From Devosia sp. 2618 (lineage in GTDB: Bacteria; Pseudomonadota; Alphaproteobacteria; Rhizobiales; Devosiaceae): 64,000 nt of DNA. This document shows positions 6,555 to 17,068 of this stretch, piece by piece. The stretch spans positions 3,844,001-3,908,000 of the forward strand of contig NZ_JBEPOO010000001.1 of assembly GCF_040546815.1 (NCBI RefSeq), written 5' to 3'. A program made the translations under genes and the position numbers. The notes under the pieces were generated by a model. It did not search any database and was not told the DNA's origin. It saw only the letters and a program-made list of their open reading frames with translations. Every line of letters begins with the position of its first letter. Position 1 is the stretch's first letter.

Positions 6555-7381
6555 TGCCCCAGTGTCGCTTCGATGCGCGCCCGCAGTTCGGGCGTCACGG
6601 TTGGCCGCGTGCCAAACCAGGCTTCAAATCCGGGCACCGCCTGATGCAGCAACATGCCCAGACCGTCGACGGTTTTAAGGCCATGGGCCTCGGCGTCAGC
6701 CAGCAATGGCGTCAGAAGAGGGGTATAAACGATATCGGTCACCAGCGCCGTGGCAGGAAGGCGATTGAAATCGAGCCAGTCAAAGCGTGAGCCATGCATG
6801 CCGATGGCGCTGGTATTGACCACGAGGCTGGCCTGCGGCGCGAGCGTATCGAAAGCTGCAAAGTCATGCGCCTCGAACGGCCCCTCAATGCTATCGACCA
6901 GCGTCTTGGCATTGGCCAGTGTGCGATTGAGGACATGCACTTTGCCAAACTTGCGCGCCCGCAGCGCGACGAGGATGGCCCGCGCCGCACCGCCGGCGCC
7001 GATGACGATGGCATCGCCGGCATTGTCGGACCAGCCGGCCGCTGCTGCATCGAGATTGCCCAGAAAACCGAGATAGTCAGTATTGCTGCCCGCTATCTTG
7101 CCGTCGCGTAAGACCAGCGTATTGACCGCACCAATCGTTTTCGCCAGCGGATCGACGCTGTCGCAGAGCGCAAACACCGCTTCCTTGTGCGGAATGGTGA
7201 CATTGCCGCCGGCGAACTCGCCGCTGCGCAACCGCTCGAAAAACGCCGGTAGCTCACCCGGGGCGACGTCGATGGCTTCGTAGCTGCCGTCGATCTGGTG
7301 TTCGGCCAACCATTGGCCATGGATCAAAGGCGAGCGGGAGTGGTTGATCGGATGTCCGATCACAAAGGCTTTGGTGGTCAC
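6551..7381 (-). CDS. aroE: Shikimate dehydrogenase (NADP+)
   Basis: 276 aa. Reduces 3-dehydroshikimate in aromatic amino acid synthesis. The N-terminal substrate domain shows GHPINHSRSPLIHG and NVTIPHKEA with the catalytic Lys; the NADP Rossmann motif is VIGAGGAARAILVAL followed by NRT. The C-terminal DGLGMLLHQAVPGFEAWFG is typical. The start overlaps the maf stop by 4 bp. Confidence 0.97.
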   Translation of the reverse strand: MTTKAFVIGHPINHSRSPLIHGQWLAEHQIDGSYEAIDVAPGELPAFFERLRSGEFAGGNVTIPHKEAVFALCDSVDPLAKTIGAVNTLVLRDGKIAGSNTDYLGFLGNLDAAAAGWSDNAGDAIVIGAGGAARAILVALRARKFGKVHVLNRTLANAKTLVDSIEGPFEAHDFAAFDTLAPQASLVVNTSAIGMHGSRFDWLDFNRLPATALVTDIVYTPLLTPLLADAEAHGLKTVDGLGMLLHQAVPGFEAWFGTRPTVTPELRARIEATLGH

Positions 7382-7971
7382 GTCAGGGTCTCGGGCGCGA
7401 CAGTGCTCAGGGCGGCGAGCAAAGCCAGCAGCGGCAGGCCCAGAATGGAAAAGTAGTCGCCGCTCACGGTTTCAAACAGCCGGATCGACGGCCCTTCAAG
7501 GCGATAACCGCCCACGGAATCAAGGATCGCATCGCCTTCGCGGTTGAGTACATCGTCGCGCTCGGCCTCGGAAAACTCGCGCATGGTGAGTTCCGCCGTC
7601 TGGATATCGGACCACAGCAAGATGTCGTCGCGCACCAAAGCGACGGCAGCGTGCAGGCGGTGGGTCTTGCCGCGCAGATAGTCGAGCTGCTGGGCAGCGG
7701 CTGCCCGGTCGACCGGCTTGTGCAAAAGTTCGGCGCCCAGACTCAGCGTCTGGTCGGCGCCGATCACAATGGCGCCGGGATTGGCCGCAGCGACCGCCGC
7801 AGCCTTCTTTTGGGCGAGCAATAATGCGACGTCGCGACCATCGCCGCCGGCCTCGATTGCGGCCGTTTCGAGGGCCCTCTCATCGATGGCTGCAGGGGTG
7901 ACGGAAAACACCAGTCCGGCCTGCTCTAGCAGGGCTTTGCGGGTGTTACTCTGGCTGGCTAGGATCAACAT
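7378..7971 (-). CDS. maf: Maf-like nucleoside triphosphate pyrophosphatase
   Basis: 197 aa from the ATG at 7971; an in-frame GTG at 8001 would add ten residues that fall in the DnaA-box-rich gap and look non-family. The Maf signature LILASQSNTRKALLEQAG is at the N-terminus, and IGADQTLSL gives the catalytic Asp. Maf proteins hydrolyse non-canonical or excess NTPs (dTTP/UTP group). First gene of the leftward operon, immediately beside the predicted origin. Confidence 0.93.
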   Translation of the reverse strand: MLILASQSNTRKALLEQAGLVFSVTPAAIDERALETAAIEAGGDGRDVALLLAQKKAAAVAAANPGAIVIGADQTLSLGAELLHKPVDRAAAAQQLDYLRGKTHRLHAAVALVRDDILLWSDIQTAELTMREFSEAERDDVLNREGDAILDSVGGYRLEGPSIRLFETVSGDYFSILGLPLLALLAALSTVAPETLT

Positions 7972-8066
7972 GATGATGATGTTTTCCACACTGTCATCCA
8001 CAGCTCAAGCCCAAGCTGTGATAATGACTCATGACTTTGGGCTTAGGCTCGACTTGTTCGACTTGG

Positions 8067-8081
8067 TTATCAAAACGTTAA
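8067..8081. promoter_or_regulatory. CtrA-type site, one mismatch
   Basis: TTAT-N7-TTAA (TTAT 8067-8070, TTAA 8078-8081) against the CtrA consensus TTAA-N7-TTAA, inside the predicted origin. Confidence 0.45.
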
Positions 8082-8179
8082 CAGTTCAGCCCGGACCCCG
8101 AGCCGTTCAGGGCTATGGATAGCTCTGGGGATAACCTCCAAATGCGTCAATCTCGTTGCCAAGCGTTTTTGCACAGCAG

Positions 8180-8204
8180 GATTCGAATCGTTGACTCGGG
8201 AGTC
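8180..8204. promoter_or_regulatory. Cluster of four GANTC (CcrM methylation) sites in oriC
   Basis: GATTC 8180-8184, GAATC 8185-8189, GACTC 8193-8197 and GAGTC 8200-8204 occur within 25 bp. Two more, GACTC at 8026-8030 and 8381-8385, flank the cluster. GANTC is the target of the alphaproteobacterial cell-cycle methyltransferase CcrM. Confidence 0.7.
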
Positions 8205-8210
8205 GTCTGG

Positions 8211-8225
8211 TTAAGGCTTCGTTAA
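8211..8225. promoter_or_regulatory. Exact CtrA-type site in oriC
   Basis: TTAA 8211-8214, seven bases GGCTTCG, TTAA 8222-8225: an exact TTAA-N7-TTAA. In Caulobacter CtrA binds such sites in the origin and blocks initiation. It lies 7 bp after the GANTC cluster. Confidence 0.7.
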
Positions 8226-8267
8226 CCATTGTGGCGCGACACCGGAGCGAGGCGGGCCGATCGTTCG

Positions 8268-8282
8268 TTAACAGAGCATTTA
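8268..8282. promoter_or_regulatory. CtrA-type site, one mismatch
   Basis: TTAA 8268-8271, N7, TTTA 8279-8282. One base from the CtrA consensus and 57 bp from the exact site. Confidence 0.45.
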
Positions 8283-8413
8283 CCATTGTACTGCGCGCTT
8301 GTGCCGCCGCATGCCCAATTGTGGATGGCCGTGAATTGGCTCAAAACACCGCCATGATAATACTAATACGAAGTAAGAAAGACTCTTTAGGGGTTTTGGA
8401 AGGGAAGTAAGAC

Positions 8414-9439
8414 GTGACCCACAAGCCCTTGCTGGCAACCGTTCTTGGCCAACGCCAGGAGCGTCCTCCGATCTGGATTATGCGCCAGGCTGGACGCTAT
8501 CTGCCCGAGTATCGGGAAGTGCGCAGCCATACCAAAAACTTCCTCGAGCTTTGCTATACGCCAGACCTCGCCACGGAAGTCACGCTGCAGCCACTGCGTC
8601 GGTTCGATCTCGACGCAGCGATCCTGTTCTCCGACATTCTGGTCGTGCCAGATGCCTTGGGTCAGAACGTGCGCTTCGAGCAGGGCGAAGGTCCGGTCCT
8701 CGATCCCGTTTCAGCTCAAACCATCGCGGCGCTCAAGCCTGAGCGGGCTTTGGAGCATTTGGCACCAGTGCTGGAGACCGTCCGGCGGCTAGGAGCAGCC
8801 CTGGCGCCTGAAAAGACGCTGATCGGCTTCTGTGGCTCTCCCTGGACAGTGGCGACCTATATGATCGGTGGTCGTGGCTCGACTGATCAGGCGGCGGCGC
8901 GTTTGTTTGCTTTACGGCATCCCGAGGCCTTTGAAGCGCTGATCGATATTCTGGTCGCGACCAGCGTGGATTATCTGGTGGCGCAGTTTGAAGCGGGTGC
9001 CGATGTGGTGCAGCTGTTTGAAAGCTGGGCGCTCAATCTGGATGATGTCGCTTTTGAGGAAAGGGTGATCGGCCCCAATCGCCGGATTGTCGAGGGCGTG
9101 CGGGCCCGGGTACCCAATGCGCCGATCATCGGCTTCCCGCGTGGTGCCGCCGGTAATCTCGCGCGTTACGCCGCCCGGACCGGGGTCAATGCGCTAGGTC
9201 TTGATTATGCAACGCCGCTCGATTTTGCGGTCAAGCATTTGCCGAATACGCTGCCGGTGCAAGGCAATCTTGATCCGCTGCGGCTGGTGGCCGGTGGCGA
9301 TCAGCTCGATGCCCGCGTCGATAGCATCATCGAGGCGTTCTCGGACCGGCCGCATATCTTCAATCTGGGCCATGGCATTGTGCCGGAAACCCCGATCGAG
9401 CATGTGGCGCGGCTGGTTGATCGCGTCAAAAACGGCTAA
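8414..9439 (+). CDS. hemE: Uroporphyrinogen III decarboxylase
   Basis: 341 aa, GTG start with AAGGGAAG ribosome site just upstream. Converts uroporphyrinogen III to coproporphyrinogen III in haem synthesis. The two family signatures are visible: PPIWIMRQAGRYLPEYR near the N-terminus and GFCGSPWTVATYMI in the middle, with the catalytic Asp in ILFSDILVVPDALG. It is the first gene right of the predicted origin, transcribed away from it. Confidence 0.97.
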   Translation: MTHKPLLATVLGQRQERPPIWIMRQAGRYLPEYREVRSHTKNFLELCYTPDLATEVTLQPLRRFDLDAAILFSDILVVPDALGQNVRFEQGEGPVLDPVSAQTIAALKPERALEHLAPVLETVRRLGAALAPEKTLIGFCGSPWTVATYMIGGRGSTDQAAARLFALRHPEAFEALIDILVATSVDYLVAQFEAGADVVQLFESWALNLDDVAFEERVIGPNRRIVEGVRARVPNAPIIGFPRGAAGNLARYAARTGVNALGLDYATPLDFAVKHLPNTLPVQGNLDPLRLVAGGDQLDARVDSIIEAFSDRPHIFNLGHGIVPETPIEHVARLVDRVKNG

Positions 9440-10137: not shown

Positions 10138-11403
10138 ATGCAGAATATGAAGCTCAGCGAGCTCAAGGCCAAATCCCCGGCCGAATTGCTGGTGTTCGCC
10201 GAAGAACACGAGGTCGAGAATGCCTCGACCATGCGCAAACAGGAATTGATGTTTGCGATCCTCAAGGAACTGGCCGCCCAGGAAGTGGACATCACCGGCG
10301 AAGGCGTCGTTGAAGTTCTGCCGGACGGTTTTGGTTTCCTACGGTCCCCGGACGCAAACTACCTGCCCGGTCCCGATGACATTTATGTCAGCCCATCCCA
10401 GATTCGTCGCTTCGGTCTGCGGACCGGCGACACGGTCGAAGGCCAGATCCGGTCTCCCAAGGATGGCGAGCGCTACTTCGCGCTGCTCAAAGTAAACACG
10501 ATTAACTTCGAAGATCCCGAGGCGGTTCGCCACAAGGTCAACTTCGATAACCTGACCCCGCTTTATCCTGAAGAACGGCTCCGCATGGAGTTGCCCGACC
10601 CGACCCTCAAGGATCGTTCGGCCCGTCTGCTCGATCTGGTTGCCCCACTGGGCAAGGGTCAGCGCGCTCTGATTGTTGCGCCACCACGTACCGGTAAGAC
10701 GGTACTGTTGCAAAATATTGCACAATCGATCGCCACCAATCATCCCGAATGCTATCTGATCGTCCTGCTGATCGACGAGCGTCCGGAAGAAGTGACCGAC
10801 ATGCAGCGCTCGGTGCGTGGCGAAGTCATCTCCTCGACCTTTGACGAACCGGCATCGCGCCACGTTCAGGTCGCCGAAATGGTGATCGAAAAGGCCAAGC
10901 GCCTGGTCGAACACAAGCGCGACGTCGTGATTCTGCTCGATTCGATCACCCGCCTCGGCCGCGCGTACAACACTGTCGTGCCAAGCTCCGGCAAGGTTCT
11001 CACGGGTGGTGTGGATGCCAACGCGCTGCAGCGCCCGAAGCGTTTCTTCGGTGCTGCCCGTAACATCGAAGACGGCGGTTCGCTGACCATCATTTCGACG
11101 GCGCTGATCGATACCGGTTCGCGCATGGACGAAGTGATCTTTGAAGAGTTCAAGGGTACCGGTAACTCGGAAATCATCCTTGATCGCAAGGTCGCCGACA
11201 AGCGCATCTTCCCGGCGCTGGACATCACCAAGTCGGGTACCCGCAAGGAAGAGCTGCTGGTCGATCCCGATATTCTCAAGAAGATGTACGTGCTGCGCCG
11301 TATCCTCAATCCAATGGGGACGATCGACGCGATGGAGTTCCTGGTCGACAAGGTTCGTCAGACCAAGACAAATTCCGATTTCTTCGACTCGATGAACACC
11401 TAA
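10138..11403 (+). CDS. rho: Transcription termination factor Rho
   Basis: 421 aa hexameric RNA/DNA helicase. The N-terminal Rho-N domain ([15 protein letters not shown]) and the RNA-binding cold-shock-like domain ([29 protein letters not shown] read in parts) are present. Walker A is [15 protein letters not shown], Walker B is [16 protein letters not shown], and the Q/R-loop region follows. ATG at 10138 or 10147. The 240-bp leader holds a hairpin and a parS-like site; rho is often autoregulated through its leader. Confidence 0.97.
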
Positions 11404-11478: not shown

Positions 11479-12765
11479 ATGACCGACACAATCGTAGCGC
11501 TGTCCTCCGGTGCACCGCCCTCCGGCGTCGCGGTCATCCGCCTCTCTGGCCCCAAAACGGCGGAACTGATCCGTGCTGTCAGCGGTCGCCTGCCGGAACC
11601 CCGCAAGCTGACACTACGCGCTATCGGCGCTGACAGTATGCTCGACCGCGGCCTCGTCGCCTGGTTCCCCGGTCCCCATAGTTTTACCGGTGAAGACTGT
11701 GCCGAATTACAGGTGCATGGCTCCCCCGCCGGCGTTCGCGCCATTCTCAAACTGCTGACGGAGCAGGGCGCCCGCCTGGCCGAAGCCGGCGAATTCACCC
11801 GCCGCGCCTTTGAGAACGGCAAGCTCGATCTGGTCGAAATCGAAGGCCTTGGTGATCTGCTCGATGCCGAAACCGAAAACCAGCGCCGCCAGGCTTTGGC
11901 CCGATTTGAGGGCGGGCTGTCGCAACGCATCGACGCCTGGCGAGATCAACTGCTCGACCTTCGCGCCGAGATCGAAGCGCGCCTCGACTTTTCTGATGAA
12001 GGCGACGTTGCTGACGAGTTGCCGCCAAGCTTTGGTACCAGCCTTCTATCCCTGAAGGCTGACATCACCGAAGCCCTGGCATCGGTGGAACACGGCCGCA
12101 TCGTCCGCGAAGGCATCCGCGTCGCGCTGGCGGGTCCACCCAATGCCGGAAAATCCAGCCTAATCAATGCCTTGGCAAAGTCCGATATCGCCATCGTCAC
12201 CGACGAAGCGGGAACCACGCGCGACGTGCGCGAAGTCCCGCTCGATATCGGTGGCCAGCTCTATATCCTGCTCGACCTCGCCGGCCTGCGCAGCACCGAC
12301 AGCAAGGCGGAAGCCGAAGGCATTCGCCGCGCGCGGCAAGCTATCGAGCAAGCTGACATTACGCTCTGGCTGTCAGCCCCAGACATTGCCGCCACTGGAG
12401 ACGAGGTTTCATCGGCCAACGCTATCCGTGTCGGCACCAAGGCCGACCTTTGTACCGTTGAAGGCGTCGACATCACCGTCTCTGCACAATCTGGCGCTGG
12501 ACTACACGTGCTATTCGAGCGACTTGAAACCATCGGTCAAACTCTCGTCACGGGCGAACCATCCCTGCTGAGCAGAGAGCGCGATCGGCTCGCACTGGAC
12601 GCAGCTATTTCCGCGCTCGATGCATCGCTCACACAGCTACCGACGCCGGAACTCGCCGCCGAAAGCCTCCGCATTGCATCGCAATCACTGGAGCGGCTGG
12701 TCGGGCGGCTGGATGCAGAGCGCGTGCTGGATCGGCTGTTCGCGAGTTTCTGCATCGGAAAATGA
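11479..12765 (+). CDS. mnmE: tRNA modification GTPase MnmE
   Basis: 428 aa. With MnmG it installs the (carboxymethyl)aminomethyl group at U34 of tRNAs. The N-terminal tetrahydrofolate-binding domain starts DTIVALSSGAPPSGVAVIRLSG. The inserted G domain has P-loop GPPNAGKSSLINAL, then DEAGTTRD and NTKAD-type GTKADL. The C-terminal catalytic motif FCIGK is intact. The stop codon lies within a parS site. mnmG follows, as in most alphaproteobacteria. Confidence 0.97.
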   Translation: MTDTIVALSSGAPPSGVAVIRLSGPKTAELIRAVSGRLPEPRKLTLRAIGADSMLDRGLVAWFPGPHSFTGEDCAELQVHGSPAGVRAILKLLTEQGARLAEAGEFTRRAFENGKLDLVEIEGLGDLLDAETENQRRQALARFEGGLSQRIDAWRDQLLDLRAEIEARLDFSDEGDVADELPPSFGTSLLSLKADITEALASVEHGRIVREGIRVALAGPPNAGKSSLINALAKSDIAIVTDEAGTTRDVREVPLDIGGQLYILLDLAGLRSTDSKAEAEGIRRARQAIEQADITLWLSAPDIAATGDEVSSANAIRVGTKADLCTVEGVDITVSAQSGAGLHVLFERLETIGQTLVTGEPSLLSRERDRLALDAAISALDASLTQLPTPELAAESLRIASQSLERLVGRLDAERVLDRLFASFCIGK

Positions 12766-12778
12766 TTCACGTGAAACA
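12763..12778. other. parS site (15/16) overlapping the mnmE stop
   Basis: TGATTCACGTGAAACA differs from TGTTTCACGTGAAACA only at position 3. The first three bases are the mnmE TGA. Confidence 0.88.
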
Positions 12779-12799: not shown

Positions 12800-12815
12800 T
12801 GATTCACGTGAAACA
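12800..12815. other. parS site (15/16) in the mnmE-mnmG gap
   Basis: TGATTCACGTGAAACA, identical to the copy 37 bp upstream. A third, degenerate CACGTG lies between them at 12781-12786. Confidence 0.88.
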
Positions 12816-12848
12816 TTGGCCTATTGAGCGCGACTGGAGAAAATGACC

Positions 12849-14711
12849 ATGAGCGATTATGCCGTCATCGTTGTAGGAGGTGGCCACGCCGGCTGTGAAG
12901 CTGCGGCCGCCTCTGCGCGCCTGGGCGTTCCAACCGCTCTGATCACCCACAAGTTTGCCACCATCGGCGAGATGAGCTGCAACCCGGCTATCGGTGGTTT
13001 GGGCAAGGGCCATCTCGTTCGCGAGATCGATGCGCTTGATGGCCTGATGGGCCGCGTCGCCGATCAGGCCGGTATCCAGTTCCGCGTCCTCAACCGCCGC
13101 AAGGGTCCCGCAGTGCGCGGACCCCGTGCTCAGGCAGACCGCAAGTTCTATCGTAAGGCTATGCAAGCAGCGATTACATCGCAGGCCAATCTCGACGTCA
13201 TCGAGGGGGAAGTCGACGATATCGAAGTGACCAACGGTGTTGTCAGTGGCGTCGTCCTGCTCGACGGTCGTCGCTTCGGCACCAAGGCTGTGGTTCTGAC
13301 CACCGGTACATTTCTGCGTGGCCTCATCCATAGCGGCGATACAACGACGCCCGCCGGGCGCGTTGGCGAAAAGCCGGTACTTGGCCTATCGACGCGACTC
13401 GAAGCTCTGGGCCTTAGCCTGGGTCGCCTCAAGACAGGCACACCAGCCCGCCTCGACGCGGCCAGCATCGATTTCTCGGTTCTCGACGAGCAGCCCGGGG
13501 ATAATCCGCCCGAGGCTTTTTCGGCATTGACCAAGGCGATCACCACGCCGCAGGTCTCTTGCCATCTGACCCGGACCACGGCCGAAACGCACCGCATCAT
13601 CTCGGACAACCTGCATCGCTCGGCGATGTATTCCGGCCGTATCCAAAGCCGCGGCCCGCGCTATTGCCCGTCCATCGAGGACAAGGTCGTCCGTTTCGCC
13701 GACCGTGATAGTCACCAGATTTTCCTTGAGCCCGAAGGGCTTGATGATACGACGATCTATCCAAACGGCCTATCGACGTCCTTGCCAGCCGAGGTGCAGC
13801 AGGCGTTTCTCGAGTCCATGCCAGGTCTGGAAAATGTCCGCATTGTCCGGCCCGGCTATGCCATCGAGTATGACTATGTCGATCCCCGCGAACTGCGCCC
13901 AACGCTCGAAGTCAAGCGCCAGCCCGGTCTCTACCTGGCGGGGCAGATCAACGGGACGACCGGCTACGAGGAAGCGGGTGCCCAGGGTCTGCTCGCCGGT
14001 GCCAACGCTGCCCTGGCCGCCAATGGGGAGGACCCAATGGTTCTGTCTCGCACCGAGAGCTATCTCGGTGTGATGGTCGATGATCTGGTGACACGCGGCG
14101 TCTCAGAGCCCTATCGCATGTTTACATCGCGAGCAGAGTTCCGCCTGCACCTGCGCGCCGACAATGCCGATCAGCGCCTTACGGCGCTTGGCCAGAAGTT
14201 TGGTCTGGTCGGCGAAGAACGCGCCGACATGTTTGAGCAGAAGGCCGCGGCACTGGCGGCGGGCCGCACTCTGCTCACCAGCTTGAGTGCTTCGCCCAAC
14301 GCCGCGCGTAAGGTCGGCATTGCCGTTAACGAGGACGGGAAGTCGCGTTCAGCCTTCGATCTACTGTCCTATCCCGATGTAAACGCTGCTGACGTCACCA
14401 AGCTTTGGCCGGAAGTCGGGAACATCGAACCAGCGATCATCGAGCAGTTGATGGTTGATGCGCAGTACGCCGTCTATCTGGATCGTCAGAAGAACGACAT
14501 CGAGACCGTGCGTCGGGATGAGCAGAAGCCGATTCCGGACGCCATGGACTATGATTCCATTCCGGGTCTTTCCATGGAGCTACGGCAGAAGCTGCAGCAG
14601 TACCGCCCACAGACTATTGCCCAGGCGCAAGCCATGGACGGCATGACGCCTGCGGCAATCACCCTTCTCCTGGCGGTGATCCGTCGTGGCGAAATGCGCA
14701 AGGCCAGTTAA
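12849..14711 (+). CDS. mnmG: tRNA uridine-5-carboxymethylaminomethyl modification enzyme MnmG
   Basis: 620 aa FAD protein, partner of MnmE. The ATG at 12849 is preferred to 12843 because TGGAGA at 12835-12840 is then at proper distance. The FAD dinucleotide motif is [14 protein letters not shown], followed by [21 protein letters not shown] read in parts; the second signature is [20 protein letters not shown]. The stop TAA shares one base with the rsmG ATG. Confidence 0.97.
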
Positions 14712-15358
14712 TGAGCGAAACCGACATTATTGCCCGCTATGCGGAGCATTTTACCCGACCACTGGCCGACGTTGCTGCCGATCTGGAATCCTATGCTCAG
14801 CTGTTGCGCAAGTGGCAGGCGGTACAGAATCTTGTTTCACGTGAAACACTGGATGACGTCTGGACACGTCACTTTGCCGACAGCCTGCAGGTACTATCGC
14901 TCTTGAAGCAGGGCGATCATGCCTTTCTAGACTTCGGGAGTGGCGGGGGATTGCCGGCCTTGCCGCTGGCGATCGCGCTCAAAAGCCCGAATCACCATTT
15001 TACGCTGATTGAGCCAAACGGCCGAAAGGTCAGCTTCTTGCGGACGGTTGCCCGAGAACTCGGGCTGATTGTCACCGTGGAAGGTCGCCGCAGCGACCAG
15101 ATTGATTCACGTGAAACACCGGCGCCAGATGTCATTACCTCCCGTGCACTGGCCTCTTTGCCCCAGCTTTGCAGCTGGATGAAGCCGTTTTTCGCGCCCC
15201 AGACGCGTGCCATCCTGCATAAAGGCAGGGAACATGTTGAAGAACTCGCCGAAACGAGTACGCATTGGGACTACGACGTGCTAATAACTGAAAGTGACAC
15301 TGATCCTAGCGGTGTCCTGCTCACGCTCACAAATTTGAGTGCGAAAACAGTTAGTTAG
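14711..15358 (+). CDS. rsmG: 16S rRNA (guanine527-N7)-methyltransferase RsmG
   Basis: 215 aa SAM-dependent methyltransferase. The family segment LLRKWQAVQNLVSRETLDDVW is followed by motif I LDFGSGGGLPALPLAI and the post-I acidic loop EPNGRKVSFLRTVARELG. It is the distal partner of mnmG (1-bp overlap) and upstream of parA. Two parS sites lie inside its coding sequence, so the amino-acid sequence VSRET there is constrained by both codes. Confidence 0.95.
   Translation: MSETDIIARYAEHFTRPLADVAADLESYAQLLRKWQAVQNLVSRETLDDVWTRHFADSLQVLSLLKQGDHAFLDFGSGGGLPALPLAIALKSPNHHFTLIEPNGRKVSFLRTVARELGLIVTVEGRRSDQIDSRETPAPDVITSRALASLPQLCSWMKPFFAPQTRAILHKGREHVEELAETSTHWDYDVLITESDTDPSGVLLTLTNLSAKTVS
14833..14848. 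other. Perfect parS site inside rsmG
   Basis: TGTTTCACGTGAAACA, 16/16 to the ParB consensus, encoding part of LVSRET in RsmG. Confidence 0.95.
15103..15118. other. parS site (15/16) inside rsmG
   Basis: TGATTCACGTGAAACA, 270 bp from the perfect site; encodes part of DSRETP. Confidence 0.88.
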
Positions 15359-15382: not shown

Positions 15383-16183
15383 TTGGCGCCCCGTATCCTG
15401 ACACTGGCCAATCAAAAAGGCGGCGTGGGTAAGACCACGACTGCAATCAATCTGGCAACGGCGCTGGCCGCTATTGGCGAGCGCGTGCTGATTGTCGACC
15501 TCGATCCGCAGGGCAATGCCTCGACGGGTCTCGGAATCTCGCGCACAGACCGCGAAGTCTCGTCCTATGACCTGCTGGTCGGCGAGGCGACGGTTGCGCA
15601 GGCCGCGATCATGACCAGCGTGCCCAATGTGGCTATTGTTCCATCGACCATGGATTTGCTGGGCGTTGAGCTGACTATTGCCGGGCATGCCGACCGCGCG
15701 TTCAAGCTGCGCGATGCCTTCAAAAAGCTCAATGATCTGACAATCAATGAGCGCCCGGTGAGTTATATTCTCATCGACTGCCCGCCGTCGCTCAACTTGC
15801 TGACCATCAACTCGCTGGTTGCCGCCGATGCGGTTCTGGTGCCGTTGCAGTGCGAGTTCTTTGCGCTGGAAGGCCTCAGCCAGCTGTTGCAGACCATCGA
15901 GCAGATCCGCTCGACGCTCAATCCGCGTCTGTCGATCCAGGGCGTGGTGATGACGATGTTCGACAAGCGCAACAATCTGAGCGAACAGGTTCTGCATGAT
16001 GTACGCAGCGAAATGGGAGATCTGGTCTATGACACGGTGATCCCGCGCAATGTGCGGCTCAGCGAGGCGCCATCCTATGGAAAGCCGGCGCTGCTTTATG
16101 ATTTGAAATGTGCCGGCAGCCAGGCCTATCTGCGGCTGGCTACCGAAGTGATCCGCCGCGAGCGGCAGCTCAACGCGGCATAG
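15383..16183 (+). CDS. parA: Chromosome-partitioning ATPase ParA (Soj)
   Basis: 266 aa from a TTG start with a well placed GGAGG (15372-15376). The deviant Walker A KGGVGKTTTAINLA is near the N-terminus, with LIVDLDPQGNASTGLG and IDCPPSLNLLTINSL downstream. ParA forms nucleoid gradients that move ParB-parS complexes. It lies 24 bp behind rsmG and 9 bp ahead of parB. Confidence 0.96.
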   Translation: MAPRILTLANQKGGVGKTTTAINLATALAAIGERVLIVDLDPQGNASTGLGISRTDREVSSYDLLVGEATVAQAAIMTSVPNVAIVPSTMDLLGVELTIAGHADRAFKLRDAFKKLNDLTINERPVSYILIDCPPSLNLLTINSLVAADAVLVPLQCEFFALEGLSQLLQTIEQIRSTLNPRLSIQGVVMTMFDKRNNLSEQVLHDVRSEMGDLVYDTVIPRNVRLSEAPSYGKPALLYDLKCAGSQAYLRLATEVIRRERQLNAA

Positions 16184-16192
16184 GAGCCCGAG

Positions 16193-17068
16193 ATGAACGA
16201 CAAGCCCACACGTCTAGGCCGCGGTCTGGCGGCGCTCATTGGGGATATGGCGACCGTTGAGGGCGCCCGCGTCACTGAATCGGGTGGCGTCAAAAAGCTG
16301 CCAGTTGAATTTATCATTGCCAACCGAGCCAACCCGCGCCGTACATTCGATCCGGATCAGCTCGAAGAGCTGACCAATTCGATCCGCGAGAAGGGCGTGA
16401 TGTCGCCGCTTCTGGTTCGTCCGAGCGAAGATCCTAATATTTTCGAGCTGATCGCTGGTGAACGCCGCTGGCGCGCGGCCCAGAAAGCTGGGCTGCATGA
16501 TGTGCCGGTTATCGTGCGCGATGTGGACGACAAGGAAGCGCTCGAGCTCGCCATTATCGAAAACGTGCAGCGCGCCGATCTTAATCCTCTTGAAGAAGCA
16601 ATGGGTTACGGCCAGCTGATCGAACAGTTTGACTATACCCAGCAGGACCTGGCGCAGGTCATCGGCAAGAGCCGTTCGCATGTCGCCAATACGCTGCGCC
16701 TGCTGCGTCTGCCTGAAGATGTACGCGGCATGGTGGCCAGCGGTACGCTGACGGCCGGTCACGCCCGTACGCTGATTACGGCTGAGGACCCAGCGACGTT
16801 GGCGCATCAGATTGTGGCCGGTGGCCTGTCCGTGCGTGAGGCTGAGGCTCTGAGCCAGCAGCGCGATATCGCCGGCACCAAGAAGCCAAGCGTGCCGCAT
16901 GCCGATCGCGATGCCGATACGGTGGCGCTGGAGCGCCGTTTGTCCGACGCTTTGGGGCTTTCGGTGTCATTGGCGCATGGCGATCGCGGCGGAAAGCTGG
17001 AAATTCGCTACAAAACGCTGGAACAGCTTGATGGCATCTGCCTCAAGCTGACGGGCTATGCGAACTAG
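16193..17068 (+). CDS. parB: Chromosome-partitioning CTPase ParB (Spo0J)
   Basis: 291 aa. The start RLGRGLAALIGD matches the ParA-activating N-terminus. The CTP-binding ParB/Srx box contains IRANPRRTFD-like NRANPRRTFDPDQLEEL and GERRWRAAQKAGL. The central HTH (YTQQDLAQVIGKSRSHVANTLRLL in parts) binds parS. The C-terminal dimer domain ends ISLKLTGYAN-like ICLKLTGYAN. Its targets are the CACGTG-centred sites mapped around this operon. Confidence 0.96.
   Translation: MNDKPTRLGRGLAALIGDMATVEGARVTESGGVKKLPVEFIIANRANPRRTFDPDQLEELTNSIREKGVMSPLLVRPSEDPNIFELIAGERRWRAAQKAGLHDVPVIVRDVDDKEALELAIIENVQRADLNPLEEAMGYGQLIEQFDYTQQDLAQVIGKSRSHVANTLRLLRLPEDVRGMVASGTLTAGHARTLITAEDPATLAHQIVAGGLSVREAEALSQQRDIAGTKKPSVPHADRDADTVALERRLSDALGLSVSLAHGDRGGKLEIRYKTLEQLDGICLKLTGYAN

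Follow-up and report, generated by a model that had tools for sequence, protein, structure and literature searches.

Whether the 442-bp gap between maf and hemE (positions 7972-8413) in the soil bacterium Devosia sp. 2618 is the chromosomal replication origin is the question raised by this locus. The window analyzed here is a 64,000-nucleotide stretch of the 4,253,964-bp chromosome, on which the gap lies at 3,852,200. An earlier note had assigned the origin role from synteny. That assignment is supported by gene order, by the excess of motifs over chance and their conserved arrangement, by parS sites within 7 kb, and by a position opposite dif, and we place the probability that the gap is oriC at about 0.86. 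The predicted origin itself is of a known kind, the hemE-linked alphaproteobacterial oriC. The new details are a conserved predicted CtrA footprint in the origin of one Hyphomicrobiales family, Devosiaceae, and an octamer polarity that is uncoupled from the predicted oriC. Counted against an origin at the gap are octamer polarity, the right-arm-like GC3 skew of the adjacent segment, arm balance, and the small number of alignment rows with multiple DnaA boxes.

Gene neighborhood and motifs of the maf-hemE gap

The gap is flanked by maf on the minus strand (7378-7971) and hemE on the plus strand (8414-9439, GTG start at 8414). The gene families of both flanks were checked, and the genes are transcribed away from each other, as the earlier note had described. 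The order on the hemE side is hemE-hemJ-rho-mnmE-mnmG-rsmG-parA-parB, in which rho (10138-11403), mnmG (12843-14711), parA (15383-16183), and parB (16193-17068) are plus-strand open reading frames with family checks. The order rho-mnmE-mnmG-rsmG-parAB given in the earlier note is present, but hemJ, between hemE and rho, had been omitted. The hemE-rho-mnmE-mnmG-parAB and dnaQ-coaE-aroE orders are preserved in most of 80 loci. The longest maf reading frame begins at GTG 8001, and ATG 7971 corresponds to its residue 11. The predicted start at ATG 7971 fits better because a DnaA box at 7982-7990 and almost all surrounding bases are conserved as DNA in 37 aligned Devosia rows.

By its HemE relatives and by a tree built from HemE, Rho, and MnmG, the window belongs to Devosia and is closest to D. 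psychrophila. The chromosome has a single dnaA match, 449 kb from the gap, and encodes a CtrA ortholog (NF045991, 426.7 bits against a cut-off of 350, which 1/14 controls exceeded). A RAMA-domain match, as in Caulobacter CcrM, is also present in the genome; the one match among 14 controls was Caulobacter.

The gap contains three 9-mers that each differ by one base from the DnaA box: TTTTCCACA at 7982-7990 (plus strand, 99% conserved), TCATCCACA at 7994-8002 (plus strand, 90% conserved, with the two-mismatch form TCATCCCCA commonest among the rows), and TTATCCCCA at 8126-8134 (minus strand, 92% conserved). The remainder of the window predicts 0.05 such boxes where three are seen, and 0/2000 dinucleotide shuffles reach three. 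Two weaker minus-strand 9-mers with two mismatches each lie at 8114-8122 (CTATCCATA) and 8320-8328 (CCATCCACA, commonest row form CCGTCCACA). The latter adjoins an AT-rich block at 8340-8400, a candidate unwinding element that is 85% conserved in Devosia rows; 40-bp windows near 8360-8380 contain up to 65-68% AT, as compared to about 39% in the sampled genome. One perfect CtrA site, TTAA-N7-TTAA, occupies 8211-8225, and 16/2000 shuffles contain a perfect site. One-mismatch versions lie at 8268-8282, a second site that is perfect in 14/37 rows, and at 8067-8081, a degenerate TTAT-N7-TTAA whose right half, TTAACA, is conserved. Counted on both strands, TTAAC half sites number seven, a figure reached in 1/2000 shuffles. 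GANTC sites number six, as compared to 0.5 expected from the window (13/2000 shuffles); four are clustered at 8180-8204 (8180, 8185, 8193, and 8200), and the others are at 8026 and 8381. The three near-perfect DnaA boxes, three CtrA-type motifs, six GANTC sites, and AT-rich end before hemE listed in the earlier note are thus all confirmed, the boxes and GANTC sites at frequencies beyond chance. A perfect match to the IHF consensus, at 8068-8080, is not conserved, since base 8070 is T in just 4/37 Devosia rows.

Conservation in Devosia and the distribution of CtrA sites

Sixty-one genomes were searched for hemE, and 60 matched. The alignment comprises 37 Devosia rows, 36 of them distinct, from 30 of these 60 genomes (this genome included) and seven named loci. 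L023 was omitted as apparently the same locus as L143, and six outlying Devosiaceae rows (L030, L031, and L033-L036, of which L035 and L036 bear the Devosia name) were set apart. The order of the motif blocks is kept across the 37 rows although mean pairwise identity is 64%. Conservation falls to 50% at 8226-8265, below that of the boxes and the AT-rich block. At least one one-mismatch DnaA box is found in 37/37 rows, two in 29/37, and three in 11/37. In 358 contiguous kb, the gap is the sole cluster of three such boxes within 700 bp. A 156-kb stretch holds 61 intergenic segments, of which the gap is also the longest to align over its full length in three relatives (G048, G029, and G053). In the same survey, two of four relatives align with a 581-bp segment, and some short segments with higher scores are probably overlooked coding sequence.

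The CtrA site is nearly invariant in this family. It is perfect in 36/37 Devosia rows, as compared to 0.17 expected by shuffling, with its halves 99.7% conserved and its spacer 64%. The outlying rows carry a full site in 6/6 cases, at varying distances from hemE, so that 42/43 Devosiaceae rows have one upstream of this gene. Other loci were counted over 450 bp upstream of hemE, except L057, which has too little upstream sequence. Full sites occur in 10 of these 65 loci, with 1.07 expected: all four Cohaesibacter, L037, Bartonella apis, the Rhizobiaceae MAG L065, Aurantimonas marina, Chelatococcus, and L094. Over the same 450 bp, none was found in Ensifer, Mesorhizobium, Agrobacterium, Brucella/Ochrobactrum, or Rhizobium-named loci, nor in any of 5 Sphingomonadales loci. 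On a quick tree, on which gain and loss are indistinguishable, 14/14 rows in the clade holding Devosia and Pelagibacterium carry the site, and its presence requires 8 changes as compared to about 20.6 with shuffled labels.

Sibley is said to have located, in 2006, the oriC of Sinorhizobium meliloti at hemE. That origin and the Devosia gap share the same gene order, adjacency to hemE, and DnaA boxes. They differ in that the S. meliloti origin is described (PMC4433202) as having no CtrA motifs and being unbound by CtrA, whereas the CtrA halves in Devosia are almost invariant. Brucella abortus CtrA is described as shown not to bind its own origin (PMC2877005), and CtrA sites in origins are stated not to be seen outside Caulobacter and possibly Rickettsia (PMC4468827). 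Other reports describe predicted CtrA sites at the origin of Wolbachia and its relatives (PMC1914354) and binding of Hyphomonas CtrA near its origin (PMC7200025). Among the matches listed, titles and abstract openings yielded no published treatment of a CtrA site in a Devosia origin. A near-invariant predicted footprint in a Hyphomicrobiales family makes the gain or loss of CtrA control over origins directly testable.

Origins at the same location are known in Caulobacter by experiment (PMC1914354) and in Sphingopyxis by prediction (PMC4741004). The Caulobacter crescentus Cori resembles the Devosia gap in its adjacency to hemE, its DnaA boxes (weak in Cori), its TTAA-N7-TTAA CtrA sites, and its AT-rich stretch (PMC1914354 and PMC4468827). 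It has five CtrA sites, whereas the Devosia gap has one perfect site and no conserved IHF site, and it is bordered by COG1806 rather than by maf. The predicted oriC of Sphingopyxis granuli near hemE likewise rests on boxes, an unwinding element, and synteny (PMC4741004), but the organism belongs to a different taxonomic order, the one in which the Sphingomonadales loci above lack a full CtrA site. Where a maf match is present in Devosia-type loci, about 0.40-0.49 kb separate maf from hemE, as compared to 1.2-1.5 kb in most other loci (L038-L102). The shorter distance fits the loss in Devosia of one intervening gene, perhaps COG1806.

Chromosomal position and strand signals

Five parS-like sites were found on the chromosome, and four of them lie 4-7 kb (within 7.1 kb) from the gap. 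One is a perfect parS, TGTTTCACGTGAAACA, at 14833-14848; the other three, at 12763-12778, 12800-12815, and 15103-15118, have one mismatch each. An E. coli-type dif gave no match as a 28-mer with up to three mismatches. A looser scan of sampled stretches yielded a dif-like site, GTTTCGCATAATATATATTATGGAACCG, at 1530361-1530388 of the chromosome, and its 24-base core occurs once per genome (up to three mismatches) in 15/15 Devosia genomes searched. These are this genome (G000) and 14 of 15 single-contig relatives; G026 was omitted because its HemE match is partial. The point opposite dif lies, relative to hemE, at a mean of -19 kb and a median of -15 kb, on the maf side in 10/15 genomes. This offset is compatible with 0 (Wilcoxon p=0.17) and differs from -85 kb (p=0.007), a value chosen from the mapped octamer flips described below. 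In G000 (-195 kb), G048 (-95 kb), and G029 (-49 kb), the point is nearer the octamer flip than hemE, and in G044 (-41 kb) and G019 (-49 kb) it falls where the flip must lie.

GC skew was sampled over 1.278 Mb of the 4.254 Mb (58/85 bins of 50 kb with data). The detrended cumulative curve is lowest over a wide, flat stretch at 3.675-3.975 Mb, a trough that contains both the gap (3.852) and the octamer flip. The check that the earlier note had proposed, a GC-skew minimum at the gap, thus points both ways: the trough, in a 30% sample of the chromosome, includes the gap, but the lowest bin is at 3.925, and there is no sign change at the gap within the window. Sampled GC skew is weakly positive in both arms, and because it is weak and inconsistent, it cannot place the origin. 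Strand-corrected GC3 skew is positive in 18/20 bins of the sampled chromosome, and over most of the left arm it is close to zero, not reversed; the segment from the flip to the gap is right-arm-like in this genome. Gene strand use beside maf is left-arm-like here: 46/74 predicted genes are on the minus strand, as compared to 214/358 in the left arm and 134/271 in the right arm. A codon-based classifier of leading and lagging genes was set aside at a cross-validated AUC of just 0.59. An rRNA operon direction test was void, as the 16S family matched 0/16 genomes and 9/14 controls, Caulobacter not among them.

Displaced octamer polarity and the competing explanations

The KOPS-like octamer GGGCAGGG is strongly polarized: of the sampled sequence, the right arm has +63/-1 and the left arm +9/-90, regardless of gene strand. 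The polarity flip on the terminus side, at 1,529,830, coincides with the dif-like site at 1,530,361. The origin-side flip of GGGNAGGG, the KOPS motif, falls at 3,720,488-3,724,685, about 130 kb from the gap; moving it from 3.7205-3.7247 Mb to the gap lowers the log-likelihood by 22 units. A flip at the maf-hemE gap, the usual correlate of an origin and not its definition, is absent in this genome and in four relatives. The best flips in these relatives lie at -81 to -76 kb from hemE (G029), -95 to -82 (G048), -89 to -78 (G053), and about -144 (G058), thus 76-145 kb off on the maf side, and placing the flip at the gap instead costs 3 to 12 units. For GGGNAGGG in G058, a position of -30 kb is almost as good.

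Between the flip and the gap, GGGCAGGG counts are +12/-1 when a genomic island is excluded. Within about the first 20 kb beside maf, GGGCAGGG is plus only, pointing toward the gap, in 15/15 genomes (+37/-0 in ten, plus only in the other five). For GGGNAGGG, plus sites outnumber minus sites in the same 20 kb, yet minus sites occur. At -60 kb, two of the ten genomes (G044 and G019) already read minus. Some loci depart from this pattern: the seven named loci L023-L029 give +12/-3 for GGGCAGGG in up to 10 kb beside maf. Few aligned plus sites are retained (4/12 in G048, 2/13 in G029, 2/9 in G053, and 6/13 in G058). Most are unshared between genomes, which indicates that polarity is maintained while sites turn over. 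The outlying Devosiaceae loci L033-L036 are minus for GGGCAGGG on both sides of hemE (+0/-7 on the maf side, +4/-10 on the hemE side), the opposite of the sampled Devosia. Beyond the family, the flip in Ensifer and Rhizobium rosettiformans contigs seems, on few sites, to lie tens of kb away from hemE on the opposite side, and octamers in Mesorhizobium AR07 are hardly polarized. No flip at hemE was seen in 61 other loci pooled over 10 kb on each side, whose counts are non-independent because the genes are homologous. We regard the displaced polarity as real.

One explanation is that initiation truly occurs at the polarity switch, among genes whose translations we read as miaB-phoH-ybeY-tlyC / nfuA-trpS-murJ-glnD-mutS, and that the gap is an old origin now serving only DnaA/CtrA-dependent transcription. 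The flip in five genomes favors it, as does its roughly equivalent orthologous position in the three collinear genomes (G000, G048, and G029) and the persistence of polarity through site turnover. GC3 skew agrees with the flip in G000 and G058, and arm balance with an origin at the flip is better in G000, G048, and G029 and equal in G058. However, arm balance is worse in G053, GC3 skew gives no signal in G048 and G029 and runs in the opposite direction in G053, and the flip falls among different genes in G053 and G058. Over the 15 genomes, the test against the chosen -85 kb puts the point opposite dif closer to hemE. An origin at the flip would predict a conserved element there; no cluster of three DnaA boxes was found near it in the 358 kb scanned, and each of the nine intergenic segments there is less well conserved along its length than the gap, so the gap is kept as oriC. 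Because the place of the flip varies and these features are missing from it, and because the flip also misses hemE in the Rhizobium and Ensifer contigs (few sites), octamer displacement is not taken as a refutation, and initiation at the switch appears improbable.

It is less probable still that the gap is only a shared divergent promoter region under DnaA and CtrA control. Its flanking genes are divergent, and both proteins regulate promoters in Caulobacter (PMC4468827), but 412-442 bp align end to end with several conserved blocks, which in our judgment is long for two housekeeping promoters, and the site is that of known origins with parS close by. A further explanation addresses only the polarity: the oriented KOPS beside maf may date from an inversion that the left arm underwent long ago. 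In G053 and G058, the switch coincides with rearrangement breakpoints, and other Hyphomicrobiales share the gene order over only about 4-8 kb next to maf, which would allow most of the segment to have been inverted. We consider this unlikely, given that most sites have turned over though polarity stayed and that polarity is alike in 15 genomes.

With the gap as oriC, its motifs allow a mechanism to be proposed, in which we infer protein binding, unwinding, initiation, and a CtrA brake. DnaA would assemble on the box pair at the maf end (7982 and 7994), together with the reverse box at 8126 and the weak one at 8320, and would open the AT-rich block at 8340-8400 ahead of hemE. Bound at 8211 (and 8268), CtrA would exclude DnaA, as it does in Caulobacter. 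The GANTC sites could report replication through CcrM methylation, and ParB on parS, 4-7 kb downstream, would capture newly copied DNA. We lean slightly toward the view that the replication axis and the FtsK-guiding axis differ in Devosia, with oriC at hemE under a CtrA brake and the GGGCAGGG switch 20-145 kb toward maf. If so, the motifs of a whole segment point toward the origin, selection on octamer orientation follows something besides fork direction, and origin callers that rely on such skews would be misled. The displaced KOPS polarity is a caution against placing origins by strand asymmetry alone.

Two observations concern the maf side of the chromosome. The switch at 3.7205-3.7247 Mb (L107) adjoins a CBS-domain, TlyC-like gene, its identity read from the translation. 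A CBS-domain COG1253 gene forms one boundary of the predicted Wolbachia origin (PMC1914354), a resemblance that is possibly a coincidence. About 50 kb at roughly 3.754-3.804 Mb (L108, L109, and L021) has lower G+C (0.56-0.58) in two stretches and, one gene excepted, no tblastn match in the sampled stretches of four Devosia relatives; it resembles a genomic island, situated 50-100 kb from the predicted origin.
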